From positions 1 through 64,000 of the forward strand of contig NZ_AULZ01000012.1 of the NCBI RefSeq assembly GCF_000422545.1: DNA of 64,000 nucleotides, written 5' to 3'. The notes beneath the pieces are model-generated. The model saw only the letters and a list, made by a program, of their open reading frames with translations. It made no database searches and had not been told where the DNA came from. This document shows positions 35,177 to 53,780 of this stretch, piece by piece. Numbering within the stretch: position 1 is the first letter of the stretch; each line of letters opens with the position of its first letter. The translations under genes were made by a program, and so were the position numbers. Source of the stretch: Desulfocurvibacter africanus subsp. africanus DSM 2603 (GTDB lineage Bacteria > Desulfobacterota > Desulfovibrionia > Desulfovibrionales > Desulfovibrionaceae).

Positions 35177-37384
35177 TTAGCGACCGATAACAATATATTG
35201 TCCTCCAGACGCCTGCTGTGAACTGTTATGGAATGTTGCCTGTGACAGGGACGGGAATATTTTAAAATTCATTGCTACTGCCGCAGAAGTTGAGCTGGAA
35301 TTCGCGCAACAAACAGCGACTAAGTTATTCGCTGGGAATGCGATCGGAAGAGTTATGGTGATAATCGAATTAGCGGCTATTATGGGAATTTGACCCCACT
35401 GCAGAATCAACCCGCTCGGCAACCGCTGCCAGCCGCTTGAGCCGAACGACTGCGTGAACTCCACATGATCCACCTTCCCCGCCATCTCGCCGGCCAGGGA
35501 CAGCATGTCCACCGTGCCGGAGTAGACAGGCACGCTGGCCGCCTGGATGCAGGGCAGCCAGTTGACCTCGGGACTGTGGGTTTCGCCGCTGCCGGTGGGA
35601 CGTGTCAAAATTCCATGTGTATCTGCAGTTGTATTCAAGGAGCCTTCCGCGTTCGAAAGGTCGTTCGTTGAAGGACCCCACGTAGGGACCTCGCTCAATA
35701 TTGTCTCGCTATCACCGTTCATTGGCACATAGAGTTGTTCAGTGGCATGGGGGCGGAACAGACCCACGCCCCTGCCCCCCACCGGATCAGCGCCGCGCAG
35801 GTAGTCCACGATACGCGGCAGACGGAAGGTCGTGCTGCCGTCGCCGTCCGAGAAGTAGCCCACGGACGACTGCGCCGCGGCCTGGGCCTGCCACTCGGTT
35901 TCCGTGATGAGCAGCCCGGACGACTGCACGTAGGCCCACAGGTCCGGCCAGGTGGTACGGCTGACGCTCGCGCCGTCGTTGATGGCCAGCATGCCCGCCA
36001 AGGCCGTGGTGCCCGGAACCCAGAGCACCGTGCCCACGGGGATGCCGCTGCCCTGGCCCGAGCCGCTGCTCAGCCTGGCCACCTCGCTGGCCAAGGCGGC
36101 CATGTCCACGTACGAGGCGTTCAGGGCAGCGCCAAAGGCCTTGATGACGTAGGGGAAGGCCACGTTGCGCGGGCGGGTTTCGGTGCCGCCGGTTGCGCCT
36201 GTCGTATAAGTGTAGCTAGCACCAACACTGGCACGCCAGACACTAGAGGCACCATTGGCCAAATTTAGCGCCTCATGCATTGAAGTGTGTGTATGGCTCT
36301 GCAGTTCATCCTCCTGCGCACTGCCATGCTCCCTGCCCACATCCACCCAGCGCTCATCGTCCAAACCGCGCACGAACTCGCCGCGCAACTCGGGCAGGAG
36401 CATGTAGGCTCCGTCCGTGGCCCGCGAGCCGTCCGGGTTGGCCGTGTCCGTGAACCTGTAGCCGCAGGCGGCCGTGGGGTTCAGCTCGTCGCCGCAGTAC
36501 AGGGCCTCGGTCAGCTGCGGGTACGTGTTGCACAGGAACGGCGCGCCGTTGCAGCGCAAATAGCCCGCCGGGGTCGCCCGGCCGGCCATGGGCATGATCG
36601 CGCCCACGGGCACGCCGTCGCCGCTGCCCACCACGCGCCACGCGCCCCACTCCCCGCTCAAACGCCTGCGCCACCAGCCCGGATGGTCCGCGTCGTCCAC
36701 GCTCCAGATGAGCTGTGTGCGGCTCTCGCCGTCCGGCTGGACCATGCTGTGCACAAAGCCCTGCACGCCGGCCGGCATGTCTGCCGGCGCGTGCTGCACG
36801 CTCTCGCGGCTCACGGCATACAGGCTGTTGCGCGTAATCGCGTCCAGGTCGCCCGTGTACTGCTCGTGCCGACCGGAGAAAGCGAAGCCCCGGAAGGTGT
36901 CGGCGTGCTCGGCCAGGTCGGTCACGTGGGCAAAGACCAGGCTGCCGTCCATGATCGCCGTGACATTGGCGGCCGAGCTGGTGGCCACGAGCAGGTTCGT
37001 GGCCATCTCGATGTGCGTGGCCCCGCCGTCCGGGGGCAGGTAGTCGGGCTGCTCGGCATAGGCCACCTGGTAGAGGATCTCGCCCTCGTCCGGGTCATCG
37101 GCGAACACGCCGATCTCGCGCACCAGGAAGCCCTCGGCCAGCCCAGTGTTGGTCATCTGCACGCTGATCCTGTGCTGGCCGTCGCCCGTGTCCGCCACCC
37201 CCTGGATGGGCAGCGTCATCTTCTCGGACACTAGCCCGGTCAGGGCCGCCGGGTCCGTGCCCTGCGGCCACACGCCGTCGCCCACGGCCGCGCGCATGAA
37301 CTGGAGCGCGATGCCACGCGTGGCGATCTTGTCCTGCAGGTTTGCGCCGGCCGTGGTCAGCACCAGCCCGTTGAAATTGGCCAT
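35177..37384 (-). CDS. Tail fibre B with knob and two collar modules, orphan cassette 2
   Basis: 735 residues, ATG behind AGGAGTAAGGACT. DUF3751-like N-terminus (FNGLVLTTAGANLQDKIATRG, GFLVREIGVFADD), knob-like repeat (YTGDLDAITRNSLYAV, MPAGVQGFVHSMVQPDG, HPGWWRRRL), a first collar module of the LPELRGEFVRGLDDERW type, and a second of the VPGTTALAGMLAIND type, each followed by a variable segment. C-terminal beta-rich tip with QSFGSSGWQRLPSG. The first collar end (ENVAF-type, TETRPRNVAFPYVIKAFG) differs from the second, so the gene looks like a fusion of two fibre ends. Confidence 0.87.
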   Translation of the reverse strand: MANFNGLVLTTAGANLQDKIATRGIALQFMRAAVGDGVWPQGTDPAALTGLVSEKMTLPIQGVADTGDGQHRISVQMTNTGLAEGFLVREIGVFADDPDEGEILYQVAYAEQPDYLPPDGGATHIEMATNLLVATSSAANVTAIMDGSLVFAHVTDLAEHADTFRGFAFSGRHEQYTGDLDAITRNSLYAVSRESVQHAPADMPAGVQGFVHSMVQPDGESRTQLIWSVDDADHPGWWRRRLSGEWGAWRVVGSGDGVPVGAIMPMAGRATPAGYLRCNGAPFLCNTYPQLTEALYCGDELNPTAACGYRFTDTANPDGSRATDGAYMLLPELRGEFVRGLDDERWVDVGREHGSAQEDELQSHTHTSMHEALNLANGASSVWRASVGASYTYTTGATGGTETRPRNVAFPYVIKAFGAALNASYVDMAALASEVARLSSGSGQGSGIPVGTVLWVPGTTALAGMLAINDGASVSRTTWPDLWAYVQSSGLLITETEWQAQAAAQSSVGYFSDGDGSTTFRLPRIVDYLRGADPVGGRGVGLFRPHATEQLYVPMNGDSETILSEVPTWGPSTNDLSNAEGSLNTTADTHGILTRPTGSGETHSPEVNWLPCIQAASVPVYSGTVDMLSLAGEMAGKVDHVEFTQSFGSSGWQRLPSGLILQWGQIPIIAANSIITITLPIAFPANNLVAVCCANSSSTSAAVAMNFKIFPSLSQATFHNSSQQASGGQYIVIGR

Positions 37385-37389
37385 AGTCC

Positions 37390-37464
37390 TTACTCCTCGT
37401 GCGAATATGTGGTGTTGCGCAGGGTCATGCTCATGGCCCGGCTGATGGTCTTGCGGATCGCTCC
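37390..37464 (-). pseudogene. Scar: C-terminal 24 codons of a tail protein I gene
   Basis: Frame ending AIRKTISRAMSMTLRNTTYS, then HEE and stop, matching the end of the I protein of this cassette (VHMGLRYTIHSQ) in position and style. It begins immediately after the stop codon of the small chaperone gene and ends just before the ribosome site of fibre B. The rest of the I gene is gone. Confidence 0.6.
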
Positions 37465-37465
37465 C

Positions 37466-37720
37466 CTACCCTTGCGTCGGCGTCAGGCTCGGCTGCTCGG
37501 GCCAGGGCGCCGTGTCCGGCCCATCCCACGGAAACCCGGCCTGCTCGGGCAGGTCGCGCAGAGCCTGGCGGTAATCGAGCCAGGCCTGGAGCAGGGCCGT
37601 GTCGGCATGCGGATAGTCTGGCAGGACAAAGCGGTCCGAGGCGGTCAGGCATCGGTCGCGCTCGGCGCGGATGGCAGCGACTGCCTGGGCTTTCACCTTA
37701 ACTGAGTTGATGATGATCAT
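37466..37720 (-). CDS. Small tail assembly chaperone (APC), orphan cassette 2
   Basis: 84 residues: only the APC half (IRAERDRCLTASDRFVLPDY, WLDYRQALRDLPEQAGFPWD). The start ATG overlaps the stop of the small gene upstream (ATGA), so the two are translated together and may be the two halves of a chaperone that is one chain elsewhere. It follows fibre A. Confidence 0.78.
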   Translation of the reverse strand: MIIINSVKVKAQAVAAIRAERDRCLTASDRFVLPDYPHADTALLQAWLDYRQALRDLPEQAGFPWDGPDTAPWPEQPSLTPTQG

Positions 37721-37926
37721 GCCCCCTCCCCATATCCATCAGGATTGCTGAAATCCGCCTCCCAGGCGTCCCGGTTGGTTCGGTCTGTGGGAAGAGCCGA
37801 TGTATCCACAAGAAGGTATGGTACGCTGGCCGGGACGAACCGATGCGCGTATTCCAACACGTCGCCACCAACTGGATGAATTATGCGCACGCCTCCCTGG
37901 CCATTTGGGATTATTACAACTTGCAT
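37717..37926 (-). CDS. Small protein, N-terminal half of a split fibre chaperone
   Basis: 69 residues, MQVVIIPNGQGGVRIIHP then YLLVDTSALPTDRTNRDAWE. The D-x-S-x-LP-x-D-R-x-x-R-D-A-W pattern usually forms the front part of phage proteins whose back part is an APC segment. Here the APC part is the next gene, with ATGA overlap. It lies 9 bp after fibre A. Confidence 0.7.
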   Translation of the reverse strand: MQVVIIPNGQGGVRIIHPVGGDVLEYAHRFVPASVPYLLVDTSALPTDRTNRDAWEADFSNPDGYGEGA

Positions 37927-37935
37927 ATCAGCCTC

Positions 37936-39621
37936 CTACCTAAAAATGGCCAAAGCTACATTTTGAGAATCAAAGGCAATGCTGCCGGTGTAAACATACA
38001 CATCGAACCCGCTGACAGTCTTATTGGCTACCTCAATCACTTGTTGCACTGTATTAGCCGTTCCATAGTTGTCTGAACCCACGACGGAATAGTCCGTGTC
38101 CGGCATATTCATTGCGAACTGCACCGTGTAATTGCCAGTCCCGTTATCAATGACACCGGCGATGTTCCCGCCAGCACGCACGACTGGAATGCCAGCTCCA
38201 TTTATGCACGCCCAGGCCCGACAGGCGAACATGGGCAAGGAACTAACGTCAGGCAGCTCGTTGCGATTAATTTTCCCCGCCACCTCGCCGGCCAGCTCCA
38301 GCATGTTAACCGTGCCGGAGTCCACTGGCAGGCTGGCCGCCTGGATGCAGGGCAGCCAGTTGATGGTCTTGGGGCGGTTCTCGTCGGCGGTCGGGACGAC
38401 GCGGGAAGCTCGAAAGTCAAAAGCAGCTCTATTGTTTCCTGCAGTGCCGCCCGAGAGGGAATCATTTGAGTTAAATGTGCGGGATAGAGCCCCCGACCAA
38501 TTTTGCCCTTGCCCCCACAGAGCTCCTGTCATACTCCCAGTAATGTCCCTGATTGCATCTGCCTGCCACGCACCCACATCCCGCCCGTTGCTCGCATCAG
38601 CTCCGCGCAGATAATCCCGCAGCCTGGGCAGCCGGAAGCTCGTGGCGCCGTCGCCGCTCGAAAAACAGCCCACGCTCGACTGTGTCGCGGCCTGGGCCTG
38701 CCATTCGGCCTCGGTCAGCAGCAGCCCCGAGGCCTGGACGAACTTCCACAGCTCGGGCCAGCTCGTGCGGCTGACGCTCGCGCCGGTGTTCACGGCCAGC
38801 ATGCCGGGCGGCGGGGTCGTGCCCGGCACCCACAGCACCGTGCCCACGGGCAGACCGCCTCCGCCCACTACGCGCCATGTGCCCCAGATCCCGGCCGCGC
38901 GCCTGCGCCACCAGCCCGGATGCTCGGGATCGTCCACGCTCCACAAAAGCTGCGTGCGCGCCGCGCCGTCCGGCTGGACCATGGTCTGCACAAAGCCCTG
39001 CACGCCTGCCGGCATGTCCGTGGGCGCGTGCTGCACAGTGTCGCGGCTGACCGCATACAGACTGTTGCGCTCGATGGCGTCCAGGTCGCCCGTGTAGGCC
39101 TCGTGCCTGCCGCTCAACGCAAAGCCCTTGAAGCTGTCGGCGTGCGCCGCCAAATCCGCCTTGGTCGCGTAGACCAGCCCCTGGTTGATGATCGCCGTGA
39201 CGCTCGATGCCGAGCCCGTGACCACGTGCAGGTCCAGGCTCATCTCGATGTGCGTGGCCCCACCGTCCGGCGGCAAATAGTCCGGGTTGCTCGCGCTGCT
39301 GACCTGGTACAGGATCTCGCCCAGGTCCGGGTCGCTGGCGAACACGCCCAGCTCGCGCAGCATGAAGCCCGTGGCCAGGCTCGTGTTGTCCACGAGCAGG
39401 CTGAGCGTGTGCTGGCCTTGGCCCGTGTCGGCCAGGCCCTGGATGGGCAGGCTCTGCTTCTCGGATACGAGCGCCGTCAGGCTCGTGGGGTCCAGACCTT
39501 GCAGCCACATGCCGTCGCCCAGGGCCGCGCGCGTGAACGTAAGCGTCACGCCGCGCGTGGCGATCTTGTCCTGCAGGTCCGCGCCGGCCCTTGTCAGGAC
39601 CAGCCCGCTGAAATTGGCCAT
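37936..39621 (-). CDS. Tail fibre A with knob and collar module, orphan cassette 2
   Basis: 561 residues from the ATG at 39621 behind AGGAGG; the longer frame upstream overlaps the I gene and is rejected. DUF3751-like N-terminus almost the same as in fibre B (FSGLVLTRAGADLQDKIATRG). Then the knob-like repeat (YTGDLDAIERNSLYAV, HPGWWRRRAAGIWGTW), one collar module (VGTVLWVPGTTPPPGMLAV, LRGADASNGRDVGAW), a variable segment, W-L-P-C-I-Q-A-A-S and a C-terminal beta-rich tip. It is the fibre directly after protein I, so it is the one expected to be mounted on this cassette's wedge. Confidence 0.88.
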   Translation of the reverse strand: MANFSGLVLTRAGADLQDKIATRGVTLTFTRAALGDGMWLQGLDPTSLTALVSEKQSLPIQGLADTGQGQHTLSLLVDNTSLATGFMLRELGVFASDPDLGEILYQVSSASNPDYLPPDGGATHIEMSLDLHVVTGSASSVTAIINQGLVYATKADLAAHADSFKGFALSGRHEAYTGDLDAIERNSLYAVSRDTVQHAPTDMPAGVQGFVQTMVQPDGAARTQLLWSVDDPEHPGWWRRRAAGIWGTWRVVGGGGLPVGTVLWVPGTTPPPGMLAVNTGASVSRTSWPELWKFVQASGLLLTEAEWQAQAATQSSVGCFSSGDGATSFRLPRLRDYLRGADASNGRDVGAWQADAIRDITGSMTGALWGQGQNWSGALSRTFNSNDSLSGGTAGNNRAAFDFRASRVVPTADENRPKTINWLPCIQAASLPVDSGTVNMLELAGEVAGKINRNELPDVSSLPMFACRAWACINGAGIPVVRAGGNIAGVIDNGTGNYTVQFAMNMPDTDYSVVGSDNYGTANTVQQVIEVANKTVSGFDVYVYTGSIAFDSQNVALAIFR

Positions 39622-39632
39622 TTGTCTGCCTC

Positions 39633-40277
39633 CTACTGCGAATGGATGGTGTAGCGCAGGCCCATGTGCACGGCCCCGCCGATGAAGGTCTTGCCCGACC
39701 TGGCCGACAGGCTCGGTACGGCCGGGCCGATGGTCTGGCGCAGGCCCATGTGCACGCCGCAGCCGATGTGCAGCGTGCCCTGGCTCACGCGCGGCACGCG
39801 GATGACCGTGAAGCGGCTGCGCAGGTTCTTGCCCAGGTTCACGGCCTGGCTGATCTTCTCGTAGGTCCGGCCTTCCGTGACCGTGGAGTGCACGAGCACG
39901 CGAAAGGTGTAGGGCAGGCCGCCATACTCGAACCACTCCTGCATCTCGACTTCGGCCAAGGGGGCCAGCAGCCGCTCCACGGCCCAGGGCGTGCCTTTGG
40001 TGCGGTGCACGGCCAGGGCGTCGCGGATGGCCTGGCGCTTCTGCGCCTCGCTCCACTTCGGGTCCCACAGGTCCGCGTGCAGCTCGGCCGCCAGATGGGC
40101 CAGCAGGGGCTCGCGCAGCTCGTCCAGGCGGGTGCGCACGTCGATGCTGCGCGCGGCCGTCGTCACGGCCTGCAGCTCCGCGTCCAAGGACTTGGCAGCG
40201 GCCTGATAGGTCGCGTCGCGCCGTAAAGGTTCAGGCAGCAGCTCGGCCAGGGAGATGTCCGCCAGGATTTTACTCAT
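39633..40277 (-). CDS. Tail protein I (P2 gpI family), orphan cassette 2
   Basis: 214 residues from the ATG at 40277, overlapping the stop of J. RTRLDELREPLLAHLAAELH, VHRTKGTPWAVERLLAPL and WFEYGGLPYTFRVLVHS are the conserved core. The C-terminus carries a short internal duplication (GCGVHMGLRQTI and GGAVHMGLRYTI). Much closer to the I protein of the contractile-tail operon than to that of cassette 1. Confidence 0.88.
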   Translation of the reverse strand: MSKILADISLAELLPEPLRRDATYQAAAKSLDAELQAVTTAARSIDVRTRLDELREPLLAHLAAELHADLWDPKWSEAQKRQAIRDALAVHRTKGTPWAVERLLAPLAEVEMQEWFEYGGLPYTFRVLVHSTVTEGRTYEKISQAVNLGKNLRSRFTVIRVPRVSQGTLHIGCGVHMGLRQTIGPAVPSLSARSGKTFIGGAVHMGLRYTIHSQ

Positions 40278-41394
40278 CTTCCGGGTCCCCCCAGGCCACA
40301 TGCACGTGGTCCGCGCCGGGCACCACGGCCAGCTCAGAGGGCGCAAGGCTCGTGTACACCGGGCTGGTGACCTGGCAGCGCTTGGCTCCCGCGGCCTTGA
40401 CCCGGTAGACGAGCTCCGAGGGGTCGATGTCGCGGCCGAGCCGGCCGCGCTGCCACAGGATGTAGTCATCCACGGCCTTATTCACGGCCGCGTGGATGGC
40501 TTCCTCGGCCAGGGCGTCCTCCTTGCGCAGCCAGTAGGTCAGCTCGATTGCGTACTGCACCTGCGAGGGCGGCAGGACCGCGACATGGTCCGTGAGCGGC
40601 CGCACCTGTTTGTTCGTGAGCACTTTGGCCACGTCAGCGCAGAAGCTCGGGCTGGGCACCTGCCCCCCGCTCAACAGGGGGTAGACCTCGACCCTTCCGT
40701 CGCTCGGGCTGAGCACGGCCACGTCCTCGATGAGCGCCGAGGCGCTCTTGGCCCAGAACACGTAGGCCCCCTCGGGCCCGGCCACGGAAAAGGACTCGGG
40801 CGCCAGGGCGATGCGCTCGCGCAAACGCTCGTCGTCCTCGACATCCGCCCCGCCGCTGCTCTCGGTCGTGTTGATAACGGCCGTGACCCGCTCGTGCGGG
40901 TCCACGAGCCTGGCGATCTGTCTGGCCACATAGCCGTTGCCGATCGCGCCCGCCTCCAGGCACTCGGCCTCCACCTCCACGCTCGTCTGGCCGATGGGGA
41001 TGTCCTTGGCCTCGCGCGTGGCGAACATGAGCTGGCCGTCGGGCGTGGCTCGCGTGCCCTTGGGGATGCGCACCACGAAGGACTGCGACGTGGGCATGGA
41101 GAAGCACAGCCGGACCGTCGCCGGGCTGGCCGGCAAGCGTTCCACGAAGGGTGCGGCCTTGTGGTCCAGGGCCGCGCCGCGCGCATAGGCCAAGAGGCCC
41201 TGGCGGCCAGTGTCGTCGATGATGACCCGCTGCTGGCTGATGATCGCGGCCAGGGCCTCCAGGAACAGCCGTTCCGGCGCGCCTGGCGCCAGGCTGCGGC
41301 CGGTGATGCCCTGGTGCGTCAGCAGGATGGCGTCCCTGACCTTGGCCGCGTCGGTCTCGCAGAAGGAGACCTCGGGCAGGTTTGTGAGGTTCAC
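40270..41394 (-). CDS. Baseplate J-like protein, orphan cassette 2
   Basis: 374 residues from a GTG behind GGAGAACATAGC. Its first 50 residues (LPEVSFCETDAAKVRDAILL, SLAPGAPERLFLEALAAII) are nearly those of the contractile-operon J at 51710, while the middle differs (GQTSVEVEAECLEAGAIG). The baseplate_J core IPKGTRATPDGQLMFAT and the RGRLGRDIDPSEL helix are intact, so the protein looks functional. First gene after a control element. Confidence 0.9.
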   Translation of the reverse strand: MNLTNLPEVSFCETDAAKVRDAILLTHQGITGRSLAPGAPERLFLEALAAIISQQRVIIDDTGRQGLLAYARGAALDHKAAPFVERLPASPATVRLCFSMPTSQSFVVRIPKGTRATPDGQLMFATREAKDIPIGQTSVEVEAECLEAGAIGNGYVARQIARLVDPHERVTAVINTTESSGGADVEDDERLRERIALAPESFSVAGPEGAYVFWAKSASALIEDVAVLSPSDGRVEVYPLLSGGQVPSPSFCADVAKVLTNKQVRPLTDHVAVLPPSQVQYAIELTYWLRKEDALAEEAIHAAVNKAVDDYILWQRGRLGRDIDPSELVYRVKAAGAKRCQVTSPVYTSLAPSELAVVPGADHVHVAWGDPEDE

Positions 41395-41562: not shown

Positions 41563-41604
41563 GTAGGGGCGGGTTGTAAGGGCGGGTTTGAAACCCGCCC
41601 CTAC
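41563..41604. repeat. REP-like palindrome with extended left arm
   Basis: GTAGGGGCGGG, TTGTAA, then GGGCGGGTTTGAAACCCGCC and a closing CCTAC. It lies between the J2 control element and the sigma-factor gene, and may insulate the divergent transcripts. Confidence 0.75.
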
Positions 41605-41684: not shown

Positions 41685-43103
41685 TTGCTCAGCTACCAGG
41701 AGTTGCTGCGAAACAGCCTGCGGGGCGACAGTCAGGCCTTCTCTGAGGTGGTCAGGCGCTTTTCGGGGATGGCCCGGGCCTTGGCCGCGCGGCAGATGCG
41801 CAGCGACGCGGGGCTTGCCGAAGACGCCGTGCAGGAGGCCTTCCTGAAGGCCTACCTCAGCCTGCCGAGCCTGCGCTCGCTGGACGCGTTCCCTGCCTGG
41901 CTCCGCTCGATACTGACTACCTGCTGCGCGCAGATGCTGCGCTCCAGAGTGCGCGACGTTTCTCTCACGGACCTGGGAGAAGTCGAGGACCTGCCCTCGG
42001 ATGAGCTGGACCCCATGGAGCATTACGCCAGGCTCCAGACCAGGGACATGGTGCTGACCACCCTGGCCTCCCTCGACGGAATCTATCGCGAGGCGGCCGT
42101 GCAGCGTTACGTCCATGGTCGGCCCTACGAGGAGATCTCGGCCGCCCTGGGCGTGCCGGTGGGAACCATCAAGCGCCGCCTGCATGAAGTCAGGGAGCAG
42201 CTCCTGCGCAAGCTTGCAGGAGAGGAGACCTCGACCATCCGGGTCGGCTACCTGCCCATCTCCGACCATCTTCTGGCCATGGTGGCGCACCAGCGCCACG
42301 ACCAGGCGAACTTCGGCATCATGCTGCGCAAGTTCCTGTCCTGGACCAGCCTGGCCAAGGCACTGGTCAACGGCACGTTGGATGCGGCCATGATCATGGC
42401 CCCCTTGGCCATGGTCCTGCGCAACAGGGGCGCGCCCCTGCGCTATGTCCTGGACTGCCACCACGAAGGCAGCGCGATTACCGTGCGCAAGGCCCTGCTC
42501 GGCCGGAAAGCGGCGGGACAGGATTGGGCTCGGGTCCTGGACGGCGCGACCATCGGGCTGCCACACGCCAGATCCACCCATGGCGTGCTCCTCAAATCCG
42601 CTCTCGGCTTCGGCAAGGACGAGCCCGGAACCCCGCGCGCCAAATACCTCAGTCCGCCGTTCCTGCAGCAGCCGTTCAGGCGTGGCGAGATCGACGGTTT
42701 CTTCTGCGCAGAGCCCTGGAGCACGCTCTCCGAGTCGCGAGGCGAGGGAGCCGTGCTGGTGCGCTCGGGCACGATCGTGCCGGGGCATACCTGCTGTGTG
42801 CTCGTGGTTACCCAGGCTTTTGCCGGGCAAAGGCCGCAGCTGGTTTGCGAGTACCTCCGCCTGCTCAGGTCCGCCGGAGAGTACGTCCACGCCCGCCCCC
42901 GGGAGAGCGCGGACATCCAGTCCCGCTATACCGGCGTGGACGTGACCGCCGCAAGACATGTGCTCGAGAGCGGATTCATCTCCTACCGCGATCTTGATCC
43001 TGACCAGGCCAGGGCGGAACAGTCCATGCAGCTGGCAGTCCAGGCCGGGATTCTCGACCGGCCGTGCAGCCTGGCGGATTTCCTTGCCCCGGGTGTTGCA
43101 TAG
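41685..43103 (+). CDS. ECF sigma factor fused to a NrtA/NasS-like ligand-binding domain
   Basis: 472 residues, TTG start after a G-rich stretch. Residues about 10-90 are sigma region 2 (LAEDAVQEAFLKAYLSLPSL), 124-178 region 4 with the helix-turn-helix (YEEISAALGVPVGTIKRRLH). From 184 to the end is a type-2 periplasmic-binding fold without signal peptide: IRVGYLPISDHLLAMVA, LSWTSLAKALVNGTLDAAMI, MAPLAM, HHEGSAITV, IVPGHTCCVLVV. This domain belongs to the NMT1/NrtA/CmpA group, which includes the cytosolic nitrate sensor NasS. A sigma factor with a built-in ligand sensor would couple ligand directly to promoter use, with no anti-sigma factor. The ligand is unknown; the neighbours suggest an oxyanion. 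Confidence 0.85.
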   Translation: MLSYQELLRNSLRGDSQAFSEVVRRFSGMARALAARQMRSDAGLAEDAVQEAFLKAYLSLPSLRSLDAFPAWLRSILTTCCAQMLRSRVRDVSLTDLGEVEDLPSDELDPMEHYARLQTRDMVLTTLASLDGIYREAAVQRYVHGRPYEEISAALGVPVGTIKRRLHEVREQLLRKLAGEETSTIRVGYLPISDHLLAMVAHQRHDQANFGIMLRKFLSWTSLAKALVNGTLDAAMIMAPLAMVLRNRGAPLRYVLDCHHEGSAITVRKALLGRKAAGQDWARVLDGATIGLPHARSTHGVLLKSALGFGKDEPGTPRAKYLSPPFLQQPFRRGEIDGFFCAEPWSTLSESRGEGAVLVRSGTIVPGHTCCVLVVTQAFAGQRPQLVCEYLRLLRSAGEYVHARPRESADIQSRYTGVDVTAARHVLESGFISYRDLDPDQARAEQSMQLAVQAGILDRPCSLADFLAPGVA

Positions 43104-43262
43104 GCCCCTTTTTTTCCGCTCCGTACTCACCCGCACTGTTTTCCTTCCGCTTCAGCGAACCTTTTCCGCGCCGCCCGCATCTCTTGAATGGGAGCCATGG
43201 TCGGAGCGGATGCCGTTCCGGGCCATCCCACGGAATCATCCCGATCACCGGCAGGGAGCACC

Positions 43263-44081
43263 ATGATCGAAGTCCGAGTCACCAGACCGAGGAGGAGGGA
43301 GTTCCTGCCCGACGTCTATCGGCCCGGAGTCATCTCCCTGTCCCGTATCCTGTGGGGCTCCTTGGGCGGCGGGCTGCTCTTGTCCCTCATTGCAATCCTG
43401 GCCGGCAGCTGCGGTATCGGCGTGCTTTACCCTCCCCTGGCCGCGACCTGCTTCATCAACGCGACATGCGCCTACCTGCGGGTGGCGCGTCCCAAGTCGG
43501 TCATCGTCGGCCATTTCATCGCCACGGTGGGCGGCCTGCTGGGCGTCCACGCGGGTGAATGGGCTCTGGGCGGCACGTCCCTGGCTGTCCCGGCCAAGCT
43601 CGGCCTGGCAGTGCTCCTGGCCTCGGCCCTCATGCAGATCCTCGATGCGGATCATCCTCCGGCAGCCGCAACGGCGGCGATCCCGGCCATCCTTCCCCTG
43701 CCCGCCCCGGATCTGCTCCTGCCCCTGCACATGGCCTGGGGCGGCGTCCTTGCGGTTGTTTTCTCGGTGGCCTGGAACCGGATCTGGTTCGAGTGCCCGG
43801 CTCCGGACGAATCCGGACGCAGAACATGGTTCAGGCTGGGCATGGACAAGCCCGATATCGCCGGGGCCGGAACATGCGTCCTGGCTTCAGTCCTCATGTG
43901 CGCCAGGCCATGGAGCGAAGGGCTGTACGCCGCCGGCCTCGCCTTCATGCTGGCCGGCCTGGCCGTCCTGTCGCTGCATCATTTCTTCAGCGTGAAGCTG
44001 GTCAGGAGCGCTGCAGCGGAACGTCCCTGCAGCGCGGGAGGATGCGCCGGGCCGGCTGCCGAGGAAACGGGTCCGGATTAG
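43263..44081 (+). CDS. HPP-family integral membrane protein
   Basis: 272 residues, ATG behind GGGAGCACC. Six or so hydrophobic segments. The family signature appears as LYPPLAATCFINATCAYL and ILDADHPPAAATAAIP (H-P-P after D-A-D). HPP proteins of plants and cyanobacteria move nitrite across membranes. A four-cysteine-poor, acidic tail follows the last segment. It lies between the sigma-sensor fusion and the molybdoenzyme, so uptake or export of the substrate or product of the enzyme is the simplest reading. Confidence 0.82.
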   Translation: MIEVRVTRPRRREFLPDVYRPGVISLSRILWGSLGGGLLLSLIAILAGSCGIGVLYPPLAATCFINATCAYLRVARPKSVIVGHFIATVGGLLGVHAGEWALGGTSLAVPAKLGLAVLLASALMQILDADHPPAAATAAIPAILPLPAPDLLLPLHMAWGGVLAVVFSVAWNRIWFECPAPDESGRRTWFRLGMDKPDIAGAGTCVLASVLMCARPWSEGLYAAGLAFMLAGLAVLSLHHFFSVKLVRSAAAERPCSAGGCAGPAAEETGPD

Positions 44082-44179
44082 AGCCTGTCGAAGAGCGCGG
44101 GCAAAGCTTACGCCTTGCGGAGGAGAAAAAAGCCAGGACGGCATTTTTCACCAGTCTGTCAACAGATCAGGAGGATGGT

Positions 44180-46315
44180 ATGCTCAGAGATGGTTGGGTC
44201 CCCACGATGTGCTACCAGTGCAAGGCCGAATGCGCCATCCTGGCGCGGGTGGAGGATGGCGTCCTCAAGGAGGTTCGCGGCAATCCCCGGGGCCGGGGCA
44301 AGGCGTGCGTCAAGGGCATGGCCGGAGTCTCGCTGCAGTACAATGCCGATCGCCTGACGCAGCCCCTGCGCCGGGTGGGCAGGCGCGGGGAGGGCCGCTT
44401 CGAGCCGTGCGGCTGGGATGAGGCGCTGGACGCCATCGCCGGCAAGCTCCAGGAGCTGCGCGATCGCGGCGAGGCCCACAAGCTCACGGCGAGCTTCTTC
44501 CCCCACTCGATCACCGACCCCAAGTGGCGGTTCCTGAACGCGTACGGCGGGTTCATCAATACCGCCCTGCCGCACTGCGATTCGGCCAAGATCGTGGCCT
44601 TCATCAAGGCCATGGGCGGAGTGCCGAACCATCACATCCCACCGGCCTTCTTCACCGTGCCCAAGGGCGGGATCATGATCATGGCCGGCCGCCACGCCTT
44701 CGGCTGCCTCGACGACGCCTCCGTGCCCCGGGACATCCTCGAGGCCAAGGCGCGGGGCGCCATCCTCGTGGTGCTGGATCCCCTGTTCACCGCGGATGCC
44801 GCCAAGGCGGACTGGTGGATTCCCATCAGGCCCTCGGGGGACACGGCCCTGTTCACCGGCATGACCCACCACATCGTCATGAACGGCCTGCACAACAAGT
44901 CCTTCGTCGAGAACTGGGTGCGCGAGGGCGATTTCGAGCGGCTCAAGGACTACCTCGCCGACAAGACCCCCGAGGCCATGTCGCGCATTTGCGACGTGCC
45001 GGCCAAGGACATCATCAAGCTGGCCGAGATGTGCGCCGCGGCGCCTTCCGTGGGCGTGGACAGTTTCAAGGGCATCATGCTCGGCCAGGCCATGGATTTC
45101 GGCCATGCCTGGACCAACTTCCTGGCCGTGACCGGCAACATCGACAACCCCGGCGGCCAGCCCCTGCCCGACCTGACTCCGCTCGCGCCCGTGGAGCCGG
45201 TCCCTCCCGCCCCGAACCTGCATGAGCGCGGCTGGCACCGCACCGGACCGGACAAGGACAAGTTCGCCAAGTACTCGTTCATCATGGAGCCGACCTGGTA
45301 CCAGGCCCAGGCCATCAAGAACGGCGACCTGAAGGTGCTCGTCGTCGCGGAGTGCAATCCGGCCCTGACCGAGATGGGCCAGGAGGAATGGCGCAGCGCC
45401 GCGACCATGACCGACTCCAAGGGGAATTACCTCCTGGAGATGCTGGTCAGCTACGAGATCATGCTCTCTGAGACGTCCAGGTACGCGGACTATGTCCTCC
45501 CGGACAAGACCTACTTCGAGCGCTGGGAGCTCCTGTACATGCCCTGGTGGTACAACTTCGGCCAGGGCATCGGCCTGCGGCAGCCCGTGGTCGAGGCGCC
45601 CGAGGGTTGCCGCCACTCCAACGAGGTCTTCATCGAACTCGGCAAGCGGCTCTGCCCCGAGTACTTCGCCTTCAAGGACGACGTCGAGTTCTACGACAGG
45701 CAGCTGACGGGGCTCGGGCTTTCGGTCAAAAAGCTCCAGGACCTGGGCGGCTTGTGGTCTCCCGGCACCCTGGGCTTTCGCAAGTACGAGAAGGCGGGGG
45801 GATTCGGAACGCCCAGCGGGAAGGTGCACCTCTACTGGGAGGACCTGGAGGAGGTCGGCCAGGCCCTGCCACGGGTCGACCTGGCCCCCGAGTACAGGGT
45901 CGATGCCGAGCAGTACCCCTATGTCCTGCTCTCCTACCGGACCATATTCCATCAGGGCTCGGGACAGTGGACCCACAACAACCCGCAGCTGCGCGACCCT
46001 GTCGGCGGCTTCAGGGACAACCCGCTGCTCATCAACACCGCCACGGCCCGCAAGGAGGGCATCAAGGACGGCGACCTGGTCACCCTGCGCTCGCGTAGCG
46101 GGCAGGTCCGCGTGCGGGCCAAGTGCACCGAGCGCATCCGGCCGGACTGCCTGGGCCTGCACCACGGCTTCGGCTCCAGCATAGGCCGGGTGGCTGCCGG
46201 CGGCGGAGGCGTGAGCGACAATGCCCTTATCCCGGACTCCGGGACGACGCTGGATTGGCAAGACCTGGTCGGCGGCGAGTCGCATGTCTCGACCCGCGTA
46301 CGCCTGGAGCATTAG
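44180..46315 (+). CDS. Cytoplasmic molybdopterin oxidoreductase, catalytic subunit (DMSO reductase superfamily)
   Basis: 711 residues, ATG behind AGGAGG. Cys 11, 14, 18 and 43 (C-x2-C-x3-C-x24-C) bind a 4Fe-4S cluster. Cys 133 in ALPHCDSAKIV is at the position of the Mo ligand. The pterin-binding part (GVDSFKGIMLGQAMDFGHAW, SNEVFIELGKRLCPEYF) and the C-terminal beta-barrel (GIKDGDLVTLRSRSGQVRV) are complete. There is no twin-arginine signal, so it acts in the cytoplasm. The substrate cannot be told from sequence: neighbours allow a nitrate-reductase-like role, but many relatives act on thiosulfate, arsenate or organic substrates. Its TAG stop opens a MITE-like repeat that separates it from the Fe-S subunit. 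Confidence 0.88.
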   Translation: MLRDGWVPTMCYQCKAECAILARVEDGVLKEVRGNPRGRGKACVKGMAGVSLQYNADRLTQPLRRVGRRGEGRFEPCGWDEALDAIAGKLQELRDRGEAHKLTASFFPHSITDPKWRFLNAYGGFINTALPHCDSAKIVAFIKAMGGVPNHHIPPAFFTVPKGGIMIMAGRHAFGCLDDASVPRDILEAKARGAILVVLDPLFTADAAKADWWIPIRPSGDTALFTGMTHHIVMNGLHNKSFVENWVREGDFERLKDYLADKTPEAMSRICDVPAKDIIKLAEMCAAAPSVGVDSFKGIMLGQAMDFGHAWTNFLAVTGNIDNPGGQPLPDLTPLAPVEPVPPAPNLHERGWHRTGPDKDKFAKYSFIMEPTWYQAQAIKNGDLKVLVVAECNPALTEMGQEEWRSAATMTDSKGNYLLEMLVSYEIMLSETSRYADYVLPDKTYFERWELLYMPWWYNFGQGIGLRQPVVEAPEGCRHSNEVFIELGKRLCPEYFAFKDDVEFYDRQLTGLGLSVKKLQDLGGLWSPGTLGFRKYEKAGGFGTPSGKVHLYWEDLEEVGQALPRVDLAPEYRVDAEQYPYVLLSYRTIFHQGSGQWTHNNPQLRDPVGGFRDNPLLINTATARKEGIKDGDLVTLRSRSGQVRVRAKCTERIRPDCLGLHHGFGSSIGRVAAGGGGVSDNALIPDSGTTLDWQDLVGGESHVSTRVRLEH

Positions 46316-46441
46316 AGCATTTGCTTTTGAAAATGCTCTGCAAGCCATGCGTCGGCATGGCTTGCCGCCGCGCGTAGGCGCAGGCGCAATCCACTTGCGC
46401 CGCGAGCGCCGGAGCGTGCTTCTTAAAAGCAGTCTGCTTTA
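46313..46441 (+). repeat. MITE-like repeat, copy 5 (full length), between the two enzyme subunit genes
   Basis: TAGAGCATTTGCTTTTG at the left, AAAAGCAGTCTGCTTTA at the right, internal hairpin GCAAGCCATGC/GCATGGCTTGC perfect. The first triplet is the stop codon of the catalytic subunit; the ribosome site GAGGAGG of the Fe-S subunit begins at its right edge. Confidence 0.9.
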
Positions 46442-46454
46442 GAGGAGGATCGCC

Positions 46455-47012
46455 ATGAATCAGCTCAGCCTGGCCATAGACCTGTCACGGTGCATCGGCT
46501 GCAAGACGTGTGTGGCGGCTTGCCGCAATTACCACGGGCTCACGGACCACGCTTCGGACATGCCCGGGAAGATGCCGTACTACCTGCGTGTGGAGAGCAG
46601 GCGGGAGGGGAGCTTCCCCAACCTCAAACTGGAATCCTGGGTTGTGCCTTGCCAGCACTGCAACAACGCGCCCTGCGTCAAGGCCTGCAAGTCCGGCTCA
46701 ATCAGCAAGGACGAGCAGACCGGCATCGTGCGCATCGACCAGGGCAAGTGCCAGGGCTCGGGGGACTGCCTCAAGGCCTGCCCCTACGGGGTAATCCAGT
46801 TCGATGCGGCGCGCAACAAGGCCCACAAGTGCGATATGTGCTGGGATCTTGTGCATGGCGGGCAGAAGCCAGTCTGTGCCCAGGTCTGCCTCACCGATGC
46901 CATCCGCTTCGGCGAGAAGCAGCTCCTGCGCATGGAGTTGAAGGCCGAGGGCAAGGAAATCCTCAAGCGCATGAGCGCTCAGTCCGTGCTCTATTACCGC
47001 GATTCGGTGTAG
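46455..47012 (+). CDS. Four-cluster ferredoxin subunit of the molybdoenzyme (DmsB/NrfC-like)
   Basis: 185 residues, ATG behind GAGGAGG. Sixteen-Cys-type electron conduit: Cys 13/16/19/23, 66/69/74/78, 99/105/109, 126/129/141/145. In the third group the motif reads C-x2-S-x2-C-x3-C-P: the second Cys (position 102) is Ser, so that cluster should be 3Fe-4S or missing, as known for NarH-type subunits where one ligand is changed. There is no membrane anchor gene next to it, so electrons come from or go to a soluble partner. Confidence 0.9.
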   Translation: MNQLSLAIDLSRCIGCKTCVAACRNYHGLTDHASDMPGKMPYYLRVESRREGSFPNLKLESWVVPCQHCNNAPCVKACKSGSISKDEQTGIVRIDQGKCQGSGDCLKACPYGVIQFDAARNKAHKCDMCWDLVHGGQKPVCAQVCLTDAIRFGEKQLLRMELKAEGKEILKRMSAQSVLYYRDSV

Positions 47013-47061: not shown

Positions 47062-47104
47062 GTAGGGGCGGTTTTGTAAGGGCGGGTTTCAAACCCGCCC
47101 CTAC
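47062..47104. repeat. REP-like palindrome with extended left arm
   Basis: GTAGGGGCGG, TTTTGTAA, then GGGCGGGTTTCAAACCCGCC and CCTAC. Same layout as the 41.6 kb copy. It follows the Fe-S subunit by 50 bp and may end that transcript together with the GGCGGCCC/GGGCCGCC hairpin just before it. Confidence 0.78.
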
Positions 47105-47317: not shown

Positions 47318-47551
47318 GTGCCGCAAATGCATTCCGTCCAGTTGCCAGACGATCTATCCAAGCGTCTGGCCGCCCTGGCCCAGGCCACCAAGAGGCCCAA
47401 GAGCTATTTCATGCGCGAGGCCCTGGAGCGCGCGCTCGGGGACCTGGAAGACGCCTACCTGGCCGAGACCGCCTACGAGAACTTCGTGAAGAGCGGCGAG
47501 AAGCCCATCCCGCTGGAGGTAGTGGAGCAAGACCTTGGCCTGGCGGATTAG
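47318..47551 (+). CDS. Ribbon-helix-helix antitoxin (RelB/CopG-type)
   Basis: 77 residues from GTG, chosen because AGGAGG lies seven bases upstream. HSVQLPDDLSKRLAALA (strand and first helix) and RPKSYFMREALERAL (second helix) form the ribbon-helix-helix; the acidic tail (EKPIPLEVVEQDLGL) is the toxin-wrapping part. It overlaps the toxin gene by 17 bp. Predicted to neutralise the toxin and repress the pair. Confidence 0.9.
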   Translation: MPQMHSVQLPDDLSKRLAALAQATKRPKSYFMREALERALGDLEDAYLAETAYENFVKSGEKPIPLEVVEQDLGLAD

Positions 47552-47801
47552 CTTCACGCCGCAGGCGCACAAGGAGCTGAACAAACTGGGCGCACGGGAG
47601 GCCGGGCGCATCACGGAGTTTTTGCGCGAGCGGGTCGCGCCGAGCCCGCGAGCCCTGGGCGGTCCACTCAAAGGCCATTTGCGGGAATTCTGGAGATGGC
47701 GGCTGGGGGATTACCGCATCCTGGCCAGGCTCGAAGATGACGAGCTGCTCGTCCTGGTGGTGCGGGTAGGCAATCGCAACAAGATCTACGACAAGCCCTA
47801 A
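47535..47801 (+). CDS. RelE-family toxin
   Basis: 88 residues from TTG, inside the end of the antitoxin gene. ISFTPQAHKELNKLG, LREFWRWRLGDYRILARLED and VLVVRVGNRNKIYDKP match RelE, an mRNA interferase acting in the ribosome A site; the basic and C-terminal R-x-G-N-R-x-x-I-Y residues are kept, so it should be active. Inserted next to a broken fibre-chaperone gene. Confidence 0.9.
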   Translation: MAWRISFTPQAHKELNKLGAREAGRITEFLRERVAPSPRALGGPLKGHLREFWRWRLGDYRILARLEDDELLVLVVRVGNRNKIYDKP

Positions 47802-49166: not shown

Positions 49167-49712
49167 CTATCCAAGGGCCTTAGGCTCGCCCGGCCACGGG
49201 CAAGCCGCATCGTCCGGCCCGGCCCACGGAAATCCCGCCTGCGCGGGCAGGTCGCGCAGGGCCTGGCGATAAGCTGCCCATGCGGCGCGCCCGGCCTCGG
49301 CAATAGTGTAGTCCGCCATCATGAGGTAGTCGCAGGCCGAGAGCCTGCGGTCGCGCTCGTCGCGCACGGCAACTGCCAGCCGCTCCAGGCGCATATCCTC
49401 GGGCATCTCGGGCCTGATCATCGTGGCACCCACGGGCAGCGCCCCCAGGTCCTCCATGCTGCGCCCCTCATGCTGCCAATCGTCCTCGGGCAGCCAGTAG
49501 CGCTCACCTCGATGGTCCTCGACAAGTTCCCAGCCCTGGCCTGTCCAGCAGGCCGCATGGCCGGCAGGAACCTCGGGCGGCGTCTGCTCCGTGGCCCGGG
49601 AGGGAATCAGGTAGCGCGGCTCGCCGGCTAGTTCGGTTTCCAGGGGGTCGAGGTCGGCTGGCGTGCTGCTCAGGTACTCATGCGTTTCTAAATGATAATG
49701 ATATATATGCAT
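49167..49712 (-). CDS. Tail fibre assembly chaperone (APC), contractile-tail operon
   Basis: 181 residues. N-terminal part IYHYHLETHEYLSSTPADLD and YLIPSRATEQTPPEVPAG is a fibre-tip-like opening; RYWLPEDDWQHEGRSMED and VRDERDRRLSACDYLMMADY, AYRQALRDLPAQAGFPWAGP form the shared chaperone end. Close relative of the 641-1174 chaperone of the flexible tail. Last gene of the operon, 9 bp after the fibre. Confidence 0.85.
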   Translation of the reverse strand: MHIYHYHLETHEYLSSTPADLDPLETELAGEPRYLIPSRATEQTPPEVPAGHAACWTGQGWELVEDHRGERYWLPEDDWQHEGRSMEDLGALPVGATMIRPEMPEDMRLERLAVAVRDERDRRLSACDYLMMADYTIAEAGRAAWAAYRQALRDLPAQAGFPWAGPDDAACPWPGEPKALG

Positions 49713-49721
49713 AACCGACTC

Positions 49722-51017
49722 CTAGTATTTTATGCAGGCCAGCAGGGCCATGTTGCGGGGGCGAGTCTCAACTCCACCTACAGTGCTTGACGAGATTCCC
49801 TGCCAATTCGAGCTTTGATTATCTCTGTCGAGTGACCAGCCTCCTGGTCCACCTTCCCAGTGCGCATAGATCTGCGGATTGTGGTTGTGTGCTCTGAACG
49901 CATCCGCCTGTGCACTGCCAAAGACTCGCCCGATATCGGCCCCCCGTCCGTCATCCCACCCCCTGACGAACTCTCCGCGCAGATCCGGCAGTTTGAATGT
50001 CGTGCTCCCGTCTCCAGCTCCAAAAGATGTGCCGATGGCCGCGAACAAGCCGGCATAGGTTGCGCGGCCCACAGCCGCGCCGTTGCACTTGAGCCAGCCC
50101 TCGGGCGAGCTGCTGCGCGCGAAGAAGGCCACGGTCCCGGCCGGCGTAGCGGCATTGATATCTGCCTTGCGGGCTATGTCGTCATCGGCAAGCGGCGCGG
50201 CGACTTTGGCCCGGCCCGCGCTGTCGCGCAGCATATAAGCGCCGGCAGTGGCCGCGCTCGTGGCTCCCAGCACTGCCAGGGCCGTCTCGGGCCGCGCGAG
50301 CACCCAGCGGCCGGGGTTTGCCTCGGCGCTGTCCGGCGTGATGACTTCGGGCACTGCCTCGTCAGCCAGGCTGTCCTTGTCGAAGCGGTAGAAGGTGAGC
50401 ACTCCGGGCGAAGTCTCCACCACGGCCAGCTCTTTGGCCTTGCACTCGCCCCAGGAGATGGCGTCCAAAGCCCCTGCCACGCCGCCGGTCAGGGCCGTGA
50501 GCCGAGCGAACCGGGCGTGGTTCTCCACGTCGCGCTTGGTGGCGATGACCAGCGTGTCTTCGAGCACAGCTCGAACCTGCACGCCGGCGGCCGAGCGCAT
50601 CAGGAAGGTGAAATCGAGCTCCACCAGGTTGTTGCCGCCCTGGGCCGGGATGTAGTCGGCCTGCGCCGGGTCCTCGACGTGCGTGACCATGTACAGGATC
50701 TCGTCCGAGCTCTGGGGCAGGTCCGGGTCCCGGGCGAACACGCCGCACTCCTGCCAGTCAAAGCCCGCGGCCAGTCCGATGTTGCTCAGGACTCCGTGGA
50801 CTTCGAACGAGCCGTCGCCGCGCGCCACGGGCTCGCCCACGGCCACGCGCGTCTGCTCGGCCAAAAGCGCCGTGAGCGTGGACGGGTCCGTGCCTTCGGG
50901 CCAGATCCCGGAGCCCGCGGCCAGGTTCGTGAGGTCGAGGACCGAGCCGGCGAAGGCCAGCTTGTTGTCCAGGGCCAGGCCCTGGAGGGTCTTGGTAAAT
51001 GTAGCGAAATTCGGCAT
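49722..51017 (-). CDS. Tail fibre with collar domain, contractile-tail operon
   Basis: 431 residues, ATG behind AAAGGAGC. DUF3751-like N-terminus (FATFTKTLQGLALDNKLAFAG, GFDWQECGVFARDPD). It lacks the knob-like repeat of the orphan-cassette fibres. Middle block LTALTGGVAGALDAISWG is the one found in the flexible-tail fibres. Collar domain GTVAFFARSSSPEGWLKCNG, TFKLPDLRGEFVRGWDDGRG, end VETRPRNMALLACIKY. So the resident fibre is a mosaic of contractile-type base and flexible-type tip, and shorter than the fibres of both orphan cassettes. Confidence 0.87.
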   Translation of the reverse strand: MPNFATFTKTLQGLALDNKLAFAGSVLDLTNLAAGSGIWPEGTDPSTLTALLAEQTRVAVGEPVARGDGSFEVHGVLSNIGLAAGFDWQECGVFARDPDLPQSSDEILYMVTHVEDPAQADYIPAQGGNNLVELDFTFLMRSAAGVQVRAVLEDTLVIATKRDVENHARFARLTALTGGVAGALDAISWGECKAKELAVVETSPGVLTFYRFDKDSLADEAVPEVITPDSAEANPGRWVLARPETALAVLGATSAATAGAYMLRDSAGRAKVAAPLADDDIARKADINAATPAGTVAFFARSSSPEGWLKCNGAAVGRATYAGLFAAIGTSFGAGDGSTTFKLPDLRGEFVRGWDDGRGADIGRVFGSAQADAFRAHNHNPQIYAHWEGGPGGWSLDRDNQSSNWQGISSSTVGGVETRPRNMALLACIKY

Positions 51018-51038
51018 TGCTCTGCTCCTTTAGCTGAC

Positions 51039-51166
51039 GTTGAACGAGTCCGTCCTGGACTCGTTCAACTCCGTAATGGTGTAGTAAAACTCCACCATTA
51101 CGGACGATTGCTTCGCACCCGGTGGGCCGTCCTGGCCCTGACAGCCCGTTTTCAACGGGCTGTCAG
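51039..51166 (-). promoter_or_regulatory. Three strong hairpins between protein I and the fibre gene
   Basis: H1 51039-51069: GTTGAACGAGTCC with its exact complement, loop of five. H2 51070-51104: TCCGTAATGGTG with its complement, abutting H1. H3 51138-51166: CTGACAGCCCGTT with its complement, loop of three, including the stop codon of protein I. All arms are perfect. No T-run follows, so they are more likely to slow or process the transcript, or to be recombination landmarks, than to end it. Confidence 0.8.
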
Positions 51167-51717
51167 GACAGTGTCAGGCGATAGCCCGCATGGAGGATGC
51201 CGACCATGCCGGCCTTGCCCGTGCTCTCGCGGGGCAGGCGGATGGCCTCGAAGTGGCTGCGCACGTTCTTGACCTCGTTCACGGCCTTGCGGATGTCCTG
51301 GTAGAGCGCTTCGCTTCCGACCTGTGTGTCCACGAGCACGCGAAAGGTGTACGGGGCTCCGCCGTACTCGAACCACTCCTCCATGCGCACGGCGGCAAAC
51401 GGCGCCAGGGCCAGGCGCACGGCCTGGGCCGTGCCCTTGTAGCGGTGCACCTGCACCGCGTTGCGCACGGCCGTGCGTTTGCGCGCAAGGCTCCAGTCAG
51501 GGTCCCACACGTCCACGTGCAGCCTCGCGGCCAGGTGGGTCAGCACGGCCTCGTCCAGCTCGTCGATGCGCGCCCACAGGAGGCTATTGCGGCTGGAGGC
51601 GAGCACGCCGCGCAGCCTGGCGTCCAGGGCCAGGGCCGCGGCCCTGACGGCTTCGTCGCCGCTAAGAGATGGCGGCAGGAACTCCAGCAGGCCGACCTCG
51701 ACAAGCTTCCTACTCAT
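51163..51717 (-). CDS. Tail protein I (P2 gpI family), contractile-tail operon
   Basis: 184 residues from the ATG overlapping the J stop. RIDELDEAVLTHLAARLHVD, VHRYKGTAQAVRLALAPF and WFEYGGAPYTFRVLVDT give the family. It is the shortest of the three I proteins and ends without the extra C-terminal domain of the other two, just inside hairpin H3. It links J to the fibre in the outer baseplate. Confidence 0.88.
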   Translation of the reverse strand: MSRKLVEVGLLEFLPPSLSGDEAVRAAALALDARLRGVLASSRNSLLWARIDELDEAVLTHLAARLHVDVWDPDWSLARKRTAVRNAVQVHRYKGTAQAVRLALAPFAAVRMEEWFEYGGAPYTFRVLVDTQVGSEALYQDIRKAVNEVKNVRSHFEAIRLPRESTGKAGMVGILHAGYRLTLS

Positions 51718-52828: not shown

Positions 52829-53157
52829 AGCACGCCCTCCTTGACCCGGATGCGCAGCACTGGCTTAAGCCGCCCCTCGCCCGCGTCCGTGGCGTCGTTG
52901 CGCCAGTCGATGCGCGCCACGCTCACGCGCGGCTCGTAACGTTGCACGGCCTGCACCATGGACGCCGCGCAGCGGGCCTTGGCCTCGGGCGTGGGCGCGT
53001 CTAGCCAGCCCATGTCCACGCCGAAGGCGCGGTCCAGGACCACGCTGCCCTTGGGCGTGCCCAGGATGACGCGCACGTTCTGCAGAATTTCGGTCAGCCC
53101 GGTCGCCCCGATTACCAGCGGCACGGGCGTGGTCGTGACTTCGATTTCAGCGCTCAT
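52825..53157 (-). CDS. Baseplate wedge protein W (GPW/gp25 family)
   Basis: 110 residues. GLTEILQNVRVILGTPKGSV and FGVDMGWLDAPTPEAKARC, then YEPRVSVARIDW, is the gp25-like lysozyme-fold wedge protein that nucleates sheath attachment. It has no counterpart in either orphan cassette. Overlaps U by four bases (ATGA type). Confidence 0.92.
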   Translation of the reverse strand: MSAEIEVTTTPVPLVIGATGLTEILQNVRVILGTPKGSVVLDRAFGVDMGWLDAPTPEAKARCAASMVQAVQRYEPRVSVARIDWRNDATDAGEGRLKPVLRIRVKEGVL

Positions 53158-53540
53158 GCGTACTCCATGAATTTGGCCTGCAGCTCGACCACCATGGGCT
53201 TGCCCTTGCCGGTCGTCTGTTTCCAGGATTCCGAAAGCTCCACGAGCACGAAGGTGCCCAGGTTCACGCCGCCGATGATGAGCGGCTGCTCCTCAGCCTC
53301 GGACAGGCAATCCTCCAGAAGCTCCAGCTCCTCGGCCGGATCGGCCAGGAAGGCCGTGTCCAGGCGCATGCGCAGGCTCACCTCGGCCAGGTCCCGGCCC
53401 AGGGTCTGCAGGCGCGGCCTGCCGTCGAGCACCTCGTGCCGCGCGTGGCGCAGGCCCTGCCTGCGCTCCAGGTCGCGGAAGGTGCGCGTGCCCAGGCTGG
53501 ACACTTCAAAGGCAATGGACCCGAAACTGCCTACCTGCAT
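53154..53540 (-). CDS. Tail protein U (P2 gpU family)
   Basis: 128 residues. FGSIAFEVSSLGTRTFRDLE, LGRDLAEVSLRMRLDTAF and LIIGGVNLGTFVLVELSES follow P2 gpU, a tail completion or hub-associated protein. In P2 the gene lies next to X and D; here it stands between V and W. Confidence 0.85.
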   Translation of the reverse strand: MQVGSFGSIAFEVSSLGTRTFRDLERRQGLRHARHEVLDGRPRLQTLGRDLAEVSLRMRLDTAFLADPAEELELLEDCLSEAEEQPLIIGGVNLGTFVLVELSESWKQTTGKGKPMVVELQAKFMEYA

Positions 53541-53549
53541 GGGGTTCTC

Positions 53550-53741: not shown

Positions 53742-53780
53742 GCGCTCCTCCTTGTGCTGGGCGCTGTCGTCACACTGTCT

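Follow-up and report, generated by a model that had tools for sequence, protein, structure and literature searches.

How might a bacterium tie the choice of a promoter to a small molecule without a partner protein in between? This question is raised by a locus in a 64,000-nucleotide stretch of Desulfocurvibacter africanus subsp. africanus DSM 2603 (contig NZ_AULZ01000012.1, positions 1 to 64,000; hereafter, the window), where an earlier note, made from the sequence alone, had pointed to a single chain combining sigma regions 2 and 4 with a cytosolic domain of the periplasmic-binding type, placed beside an HPP membrane protein and a cytoplasmic molybdoenzyme (Mo enzyme) with an Fe-S subunit. 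We consider it likely that this chain is a one-component, ligand-gated extracytoplasmic function (ECF) sigma factor that serves one operon only. Sequence comparison supports the fusion itself, the operon, a predicted promoter element, the co-occurrence of sigma factor and enzyme, and a natural exchange of the channel gene; ligand control would follow from these by analogy.

The fusion gene (41685–43103, forward strand, like all operon features below) starts with a TTG codon that aligns with the ATG of its nearest homolog (locus L112) and encodes 472 amino acids. Along its uninterrupted frame, the Pfam domains Sigma70_r2, Sigma70_r4_2, and NMT1_2 follow one another, each scoring above its curated cut-off. 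Region 2 (residues 23–89; 41751–41951; PF04542, E = 3.3e-9) contains a DxVQ core that is invariant in an alignment of 20 fusions, region 4 (residues 121–173; 42045–42203; PF08281, E = 1.8e-10) carries the recognition helix GTIKRRLHEVR, and the remainder of the protein (residues 179–472; 42219–43103) is an NMT1_2-type ligand-binding domain (PF13379, E = 1.6e-28 over residues 179–406). With regions 2 and 4 but neither region 1 nor region 3, and with 73.3 bits against TIGR02937 (cut-off 42.9), the sigma part belongs to the ECF class. The binding domain follows the sigma domains on the same chain and has no signal peptide, as in a cytosolic sensor. A frameshift, sequencing error, or assembly artifact joining two genes, a concern already voiced in the earlier note, was ruled out because the fusion recurs at 20 loci in 19 genomes, with 19 homologs of the window protein all encoded in open frames.

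In an AlphaFold2 model built from the 20-row alignment (mean pLDDT 79, pTM 0.67), the last sigma helix spans residues 159–181, and only three residues further on, at 184, the binding domain begins with its first strand. Foldseek matched the C-terminal part to the Staphylococcus aureus binding protein 3UN6 (TM-score 0.86 by target), TauA, SsuA, the regulatory domain of CmpC, and NrtA. The alignment has 43 invariant columns in the sensor part versus 12 in the sigma part.

We searched for the domain pair, as the earlier note had proposed, in a family sample of 149 Desulfovibrionaceae genomes and a phylum sample of 395 genomes, and listed the neighbors of each hit. Besides the window, 19 further full-length fusion loci were retrieved, giving 20 loci in 19 of the 149 family genomes (36–61% identity to the window protein), and none outside the Desulfovibrionaceae in the phylum sample. 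Among the matches listed in a scan of genome contigs, three loci aligned over both parts of the protein and the others over the sigma part. An independent profile search for the Mo enzyme returned 20 copies in exactly the same 19 family genomes. At all 20 loci the genes run from fusion to Mo enzyme to Fe-S protein, with the channel gene lying either after the fusion or after the Fe-S gene; other neighbors differ between genera. No anti-sigma gene is conserved among the neighbors of the 20 loci, in line with the proposal that the sigma factor works without such a partner. Homologs lacking the fusion, which the earlier note had named as grounds for rejection, turned up only once, in a genome of another family (G265), where Mo enzyme, Fe-S, and HPP genes stand together without the sigma gene. 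As the Mo enzyme of G265 nests among those of fusion carriers in the tree, this operon looks like a case of transfer or of sigma loss.

Promoters upstream of 43263 and 44180 had been suggested for mapping. A predicted ECF-type promoter does precede 43263 (43155–43182; –35 GCGAAC at 43155–43160, an 18-nt spacer, –10 ATCT at 43179–43182), and none was found before 44180. Its elements are of the AAC type (–35) and TC type (–10), the types that ECF factors recognize. The gap 3′ of the fusion gene contains the pattern [G/C][C/G][G/T]AAC, exactly 18 nt, [ACG]TC[T/C] at 20 of 20 loci, mostly with a T-rich run following the –35 element, while alternative spacers of 12 to 25 nt gave 0 to 4 loci each. 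When a stricter version was run over both strands of all loci (~370 kb), it occurred once each in 19 of them, always in the gap downstream of the fusion; the remaining locus, L118, departs from it at a single position. In the 4.4-Mb genome of the window, the window-type pattern has one perfect match, at 43155–43183, plus one match with two mismatches, the latter being the level at which matches were no more numerous than for a reversed control. Likewise, the perfect or best matches in five other genomes were the operon promoters, with a two-mismatch site elsewhere tying in the genome of L118. The operon of G265, which has no sigma gene, also lacks the element.

Recognition helix and –35 element vary together: the four loci with KRR in the helix (window, L112, L113, and L114) all have C at the second –35 position, and the 16 with KK or RK all have G. 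Covariation of this kind is expected of a sigma factor paired with its own promoter; the two groups are also clades. Taken together, we regard it as very probable, judging from these sequences, that this sigma factor uses the promoter at 43155. Autoregulation was considered and dismissed, as the element is absent upstream of the fusion gene at all 20 loci; sigma-70-like sites there scored no better than shuffles, except at a few loci. The promoter at 43155 would be the only predicted output of the sigma factor, and without a copy in front of the sigma gene the circuit would form a plain switch rather than a positive loop: the amount of sigma factor would be governed from elsewhere, and its activity by the ligand.

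Which genes would this switch control? The first, at 43263–44081, encodes an HPP membrane protein (TM_HPP, PF04982, E = 4.8e-22; 78.7 bits, cut-off 27.2) and putative small-anion channel. Each of the 20 loci has one such channel: HPP at 14 (two of these truncated at contig ends), and the unrelated formate/nitrite transporter FNT (PF01226) at six, of which two were checked by Pfam and the rest assigned by similarity. Well-supported branches in the Mo enzyme and fusion trees require that the two were exchanged at least twice. The fact that an unrelated channel could take the place of a small-anion channel suggests that transport of such an anion is a requirement of the operon, and points to one the size of nitrite or formate. 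For nitrite transport by the putative HPP channel in particular, replacement with FNT is the one argument these loci offer. Together with the conserved gene set and the dedicated predicted promoter, the exchange bears out the earlier description of a self-contained module.

The second gene (44180–46315) encodes a cytoplasmic molybdopterin oxidoreductase of 711 amino acids (PF00384, PF01568, and PF04879, with an N-terminal 4Fe-4S domain), and the third (46455–47012) its 4Fe-4S electron-transfer subunit of 185 amino acids (PF13247, E = 1.1e-26), which is found at every locus. No export leader is visible at the N terminus of the enzyme and none of the 20 operons includes a membrane anchor gene, in keeping with the cytoplasmic location claimed before. 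Its Mo ligand is probably Cys133 (in the motif HCDS), followed by Asp, and this Cys aligns with the metal ligand of the best match in the Protein Data Bank (2VPW, E = 1.1e-59). NCBIfam models rank PhsA/PsrA first, then formate dehydrogenase, then dimethyl sulfoxide (DMSO) and nitrate reductases, all far below their cut-offs, so that no catalytic assignment by subfamily was accepted. A thiosulfate or polysulfide reductase of the PhsA/PsrA type was rejected on the same ground (254.6 bits for PhsA against a cut-off of 694) and for the lack of leader and anchor subunit. The gap between the two genes is filled by a 127-base repeat (46314–46440) with at least 40 copies in the genome at 91% identity or more (374 first-look candidates); the corresponding gap in L112, the nearest relative, measures just 29 bases, so the element seems to have been inserted into the operon of the window.

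The sensor was said to be like NrtA and NasS, but a close kinship was not supported. Its nearest relatives are 3UN6 and proteins of the SsuA/TauA type, with NrtA a distant match (phmmer E = 0.001). The Lys in the last motif of the NrtC/CmpC domains, whose aligned counterpart in NrtA we take to coordinate nitrate, is replaced by Cys in 20 of 20 fusions, so that an NrtA-type nitrate pocket is not conserved. NasS, by comparison, retains every nitrate-coordinating residue of NrtA (PMC3795266). The sensor instead belongs to a subfamily marked by the motifs L-P-I-T/S-D-H-L, S-W, H-x-x-G-S, S-T/V-H, and H-x-C-C. The same motifs occur in the binding proteins of ABC transporters that adjoin CO dehydrogenase genes at four loci (L162, 6901–11424, L163, L164, and, with some of the motifs altered, L171), in receiver-NMT1_2-CheW proteins, and in a cytosolic version that stands alone next to CheX. 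The receiver-NMT1_2-CheW proteins (L161, 3629–5566; L169, 5386–7305) are CheV-like response regulators with a built-in cytosolic ligand-binding domain.

From these observations a mechanism can be proposed in which a small molecule would bind the cytosolic domain and close it, and closure would alter the hold of the sigma domains on RNA polymerase or on the –35 element, given that the binding domain follows on immediately from the recognition helix of region 4. Once the switch is permissive, the holoenzyme would initiate at the private promoter, which lies after the sigma gene and ahead of the structural genes, yielding a transcript for the HPP or FNT channel, the cytoplasmic molybdoenzyme, and the Fe-S subunit. 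That ligand binding gates the sigma factor we hold with good confidence. We are inclined to go further and propose that a Venus-flytrap domain behind region 4 decides on the use of a private promoter, with no anti-sigma factor, kinase, or autoregulation involved, an arrangement so far confined to Desulfovibrionaceae. By analogy, the ligand would act as an activator or inducer somewhat more readily than as the opposite: the NasS-NasT pair dissociates with nitrate or nitrite (PMC3795266), and the regulatory domain of CmpC frees its ATPases on nitrate binding (PMC13249358). It may well be the substrate or product of the enzyme; the chances are about even that it is a monovalent anion the size of nitrite or formate. 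Nitrate/nitrite and one-carbon anions would be the two main candidates.

Nitrate or nitrite as the ligand, to which the earlier note had pointed, now appears to be a guess, with formate or bicarbonate equally possible. In the corresponding module, the sensor would bind nitrate or nitrite, the Mo enzyme would reduce nitrate in the cytoplasm, and nitrite would pass through HPP or FNT. A link between HPP and nitrite transport has been drawn and NirC is a member of FNT (PMC7438415), an HPP gene of D. desulfuricans rises with NO (PMC5701242), a NasC-type nitrate reductase is among the matches of the Mo enzyme, and the domains of NasS and CmpC, from the same superfamily, sense nitrate. Yet thiosulfate reductase and formate dehydrogenase outscore the nitrate reductases (all far below cut-off), and the affinity of the sensor to 3UN6 and SsuA and its Cys in place of Lys speak for another pocket. 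Nor does the genomic context help: strong NrfA matches occur in 10 of 19 carriers versus 80 of 130 non-carriers, while the five FNT-type genomes have none. NrfA is thus neither enriched nor a required partner, and we discarded the idea that the operon generally serves to reduce nitrate and export nitrite to NrfA. The NCBIfam model for NapA at its strict threshold matched in no family genome, carriers and others alike, so that its co-occurrence carries no information. We view the nitrate/nitrite module, and nitrate or nitrite as the specific ligand, as doubtful. A module sensing formate or bicarbonate, with a formate dehydrogenase-like Mo enzyme and with FNT or HPP moving formate, draws on the CO dehydrogenase genes beside the closest transport relatives of the sensor (four loci), on FNT proteins that score higher against FocA than against NirC, and on formate dehydrogenase as the second-best family of the enzyme. 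We nevertheless rate it as unlikely: formate dehydrogenases have His after the Mo-ligand Cys, where the window enzyme has Asp; HPP has no known role in formate transport; and, again, the enzyme reaches no family cut-off.

A third explanation dispenses with small-molecule gating and takes the binding domain as a docking or autoinhibitory platform, or as a thiol or metal sensor acting through its invariant His and Cys residues. It fits the closest structure, 3UN6, which was solved with zinc, and the CorE-type ECF factors, which sense metals through C-terminal cysteines (PMC8999054). The same residues, however, recur in ABC binding proteins and receiver-CheW fusions, which makes them a trait of the binding-protein subfamily and not of a switch specific to the sigma factor. 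The excess of invariant columns in the sensor over the sigma part is moreover as expected of a conserved pocket, and we deem this explanation improbable.

Several points also weigh against the ligand-gated, single-operon sigma factor that we prefer. The Mo enzyme matches no substrate-assigned family above cut-off, and G265 keeps the operon without the sigma factor, which is accordingly dispensable. Helix and –35 covariation follows clades, and its rows are not independent. Finally, dinucleotide shuffles of the 20 gaps yielded the promoter pattern at a mean of 0.17 loci (maximum three) versus 20 observed, a figure that is optimistic, as the pattern was defined on the same gaps; the fixed spacer length and the confinement to a single site are less easily dismissed.

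By definition, the fusion classes with a known kind of protein, the ECF sigma factors with C-terminal regulatory extensions: its chain carries an additional domain, which would regulate sigma activity, and anti-sigma genes are not conserved around it. Like the fusion, these consist of regions 2 and 4 only and carry a C-terminal domain in place of an anti-sigma factor; the fusion differs in that its extension, of ~290 residues, is an entire binding protein with two lobes and that its target seems to be one promoter. At least 26 ECF groups have extensions, 15 of them unstudied, and the named ones—SnoaL, TPR, cysteine-rich, and anti-sigma-like—do not include a binding protein in the review consulted (PMC8999054). 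Our literature search, to which the 2021 ECF reclassification was out of reach, found no published fusion of a sigma factor and a binding protein. In NasS-NasT, too, a cytosolic binding-protein-type sensor controls expression of a Mo-enzyme operon, but NasS acts in trans on an RNA-binding protein (the ANTAR antiterminator NasT), whereas the sensor of the fusion would act in cis on a sigma factor and has a pocket of another subfamily. The C-terminal regulatory domain of CmpC/NrtC is likewise a cytosolic NrtA-like domain joined to its target, where in CmpC the ligand lifts inhibition (PMC13249358); the target there is an ABC ATPase and not RNA polymerase, and the last-motif Lys stands where the fusion has Cys. 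Receiver-NMT1_2-CheW proteins of Desulfobacterota use the same subfamily as a cytosolic sensor, with chemotaxis coupling instead of transcription as output. For the Mo enzyme, PhsA/PsrA (2VPW) is the closest characterized family by sequence, with the aligned Cys ligand and a 4Fe-4S partner; the window enzyme differs in having neither export leader nor membrane anchor gene.

The operon sits between copies of a phage-tail cassette (17278–21383, 35177–41394, and 49167–60665), with the baseplate J-like protein, tail protein I, and tail fibers present three times and a tail sheath gene at 58370–59836; the repeated fiber cassettes suggest a tailocin or a locus for tail-fiber switching. A second, lambda-like tail module (central tail fiber J, minor tail protein) occupies 4116–12600 at the start of the window. 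On either side of the operon stands the palindrome GGGCGGGTTTNNAACCCGCCC (41580–41600 and 47080–47100), which recurs at 22570 and 23285; it is an interspersed repeat that possibly marks how the operon entered the site. Directly after the operon, two small overlapping open reading frames (74 and 88 amino acids; 47327–47801) resemble, by eye, a toxin-antitoxin pair whose second gene is RelE-like; NCBIfam gave no match for the first.

With a classical two-lobed extension, the ligand should be findable by standard titration, and with a predicted target promoter that is known and nearly unique, direct control of the sigma factor by its ligand could be put to the test in vitro with few components. 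If true, the fusion could furnish an orthogonal, small-molecule-inducible sigma switch, and the natural exchange of HPP and FNT offers a test of whether both channel families do the same job. For the Desulfovibrionaceae, a single protein may combine sensing with the choice of promoter, and the identity of its ligand would point to the substrate of a cytoplasmic molybdoenzyme of sulfate reducers.

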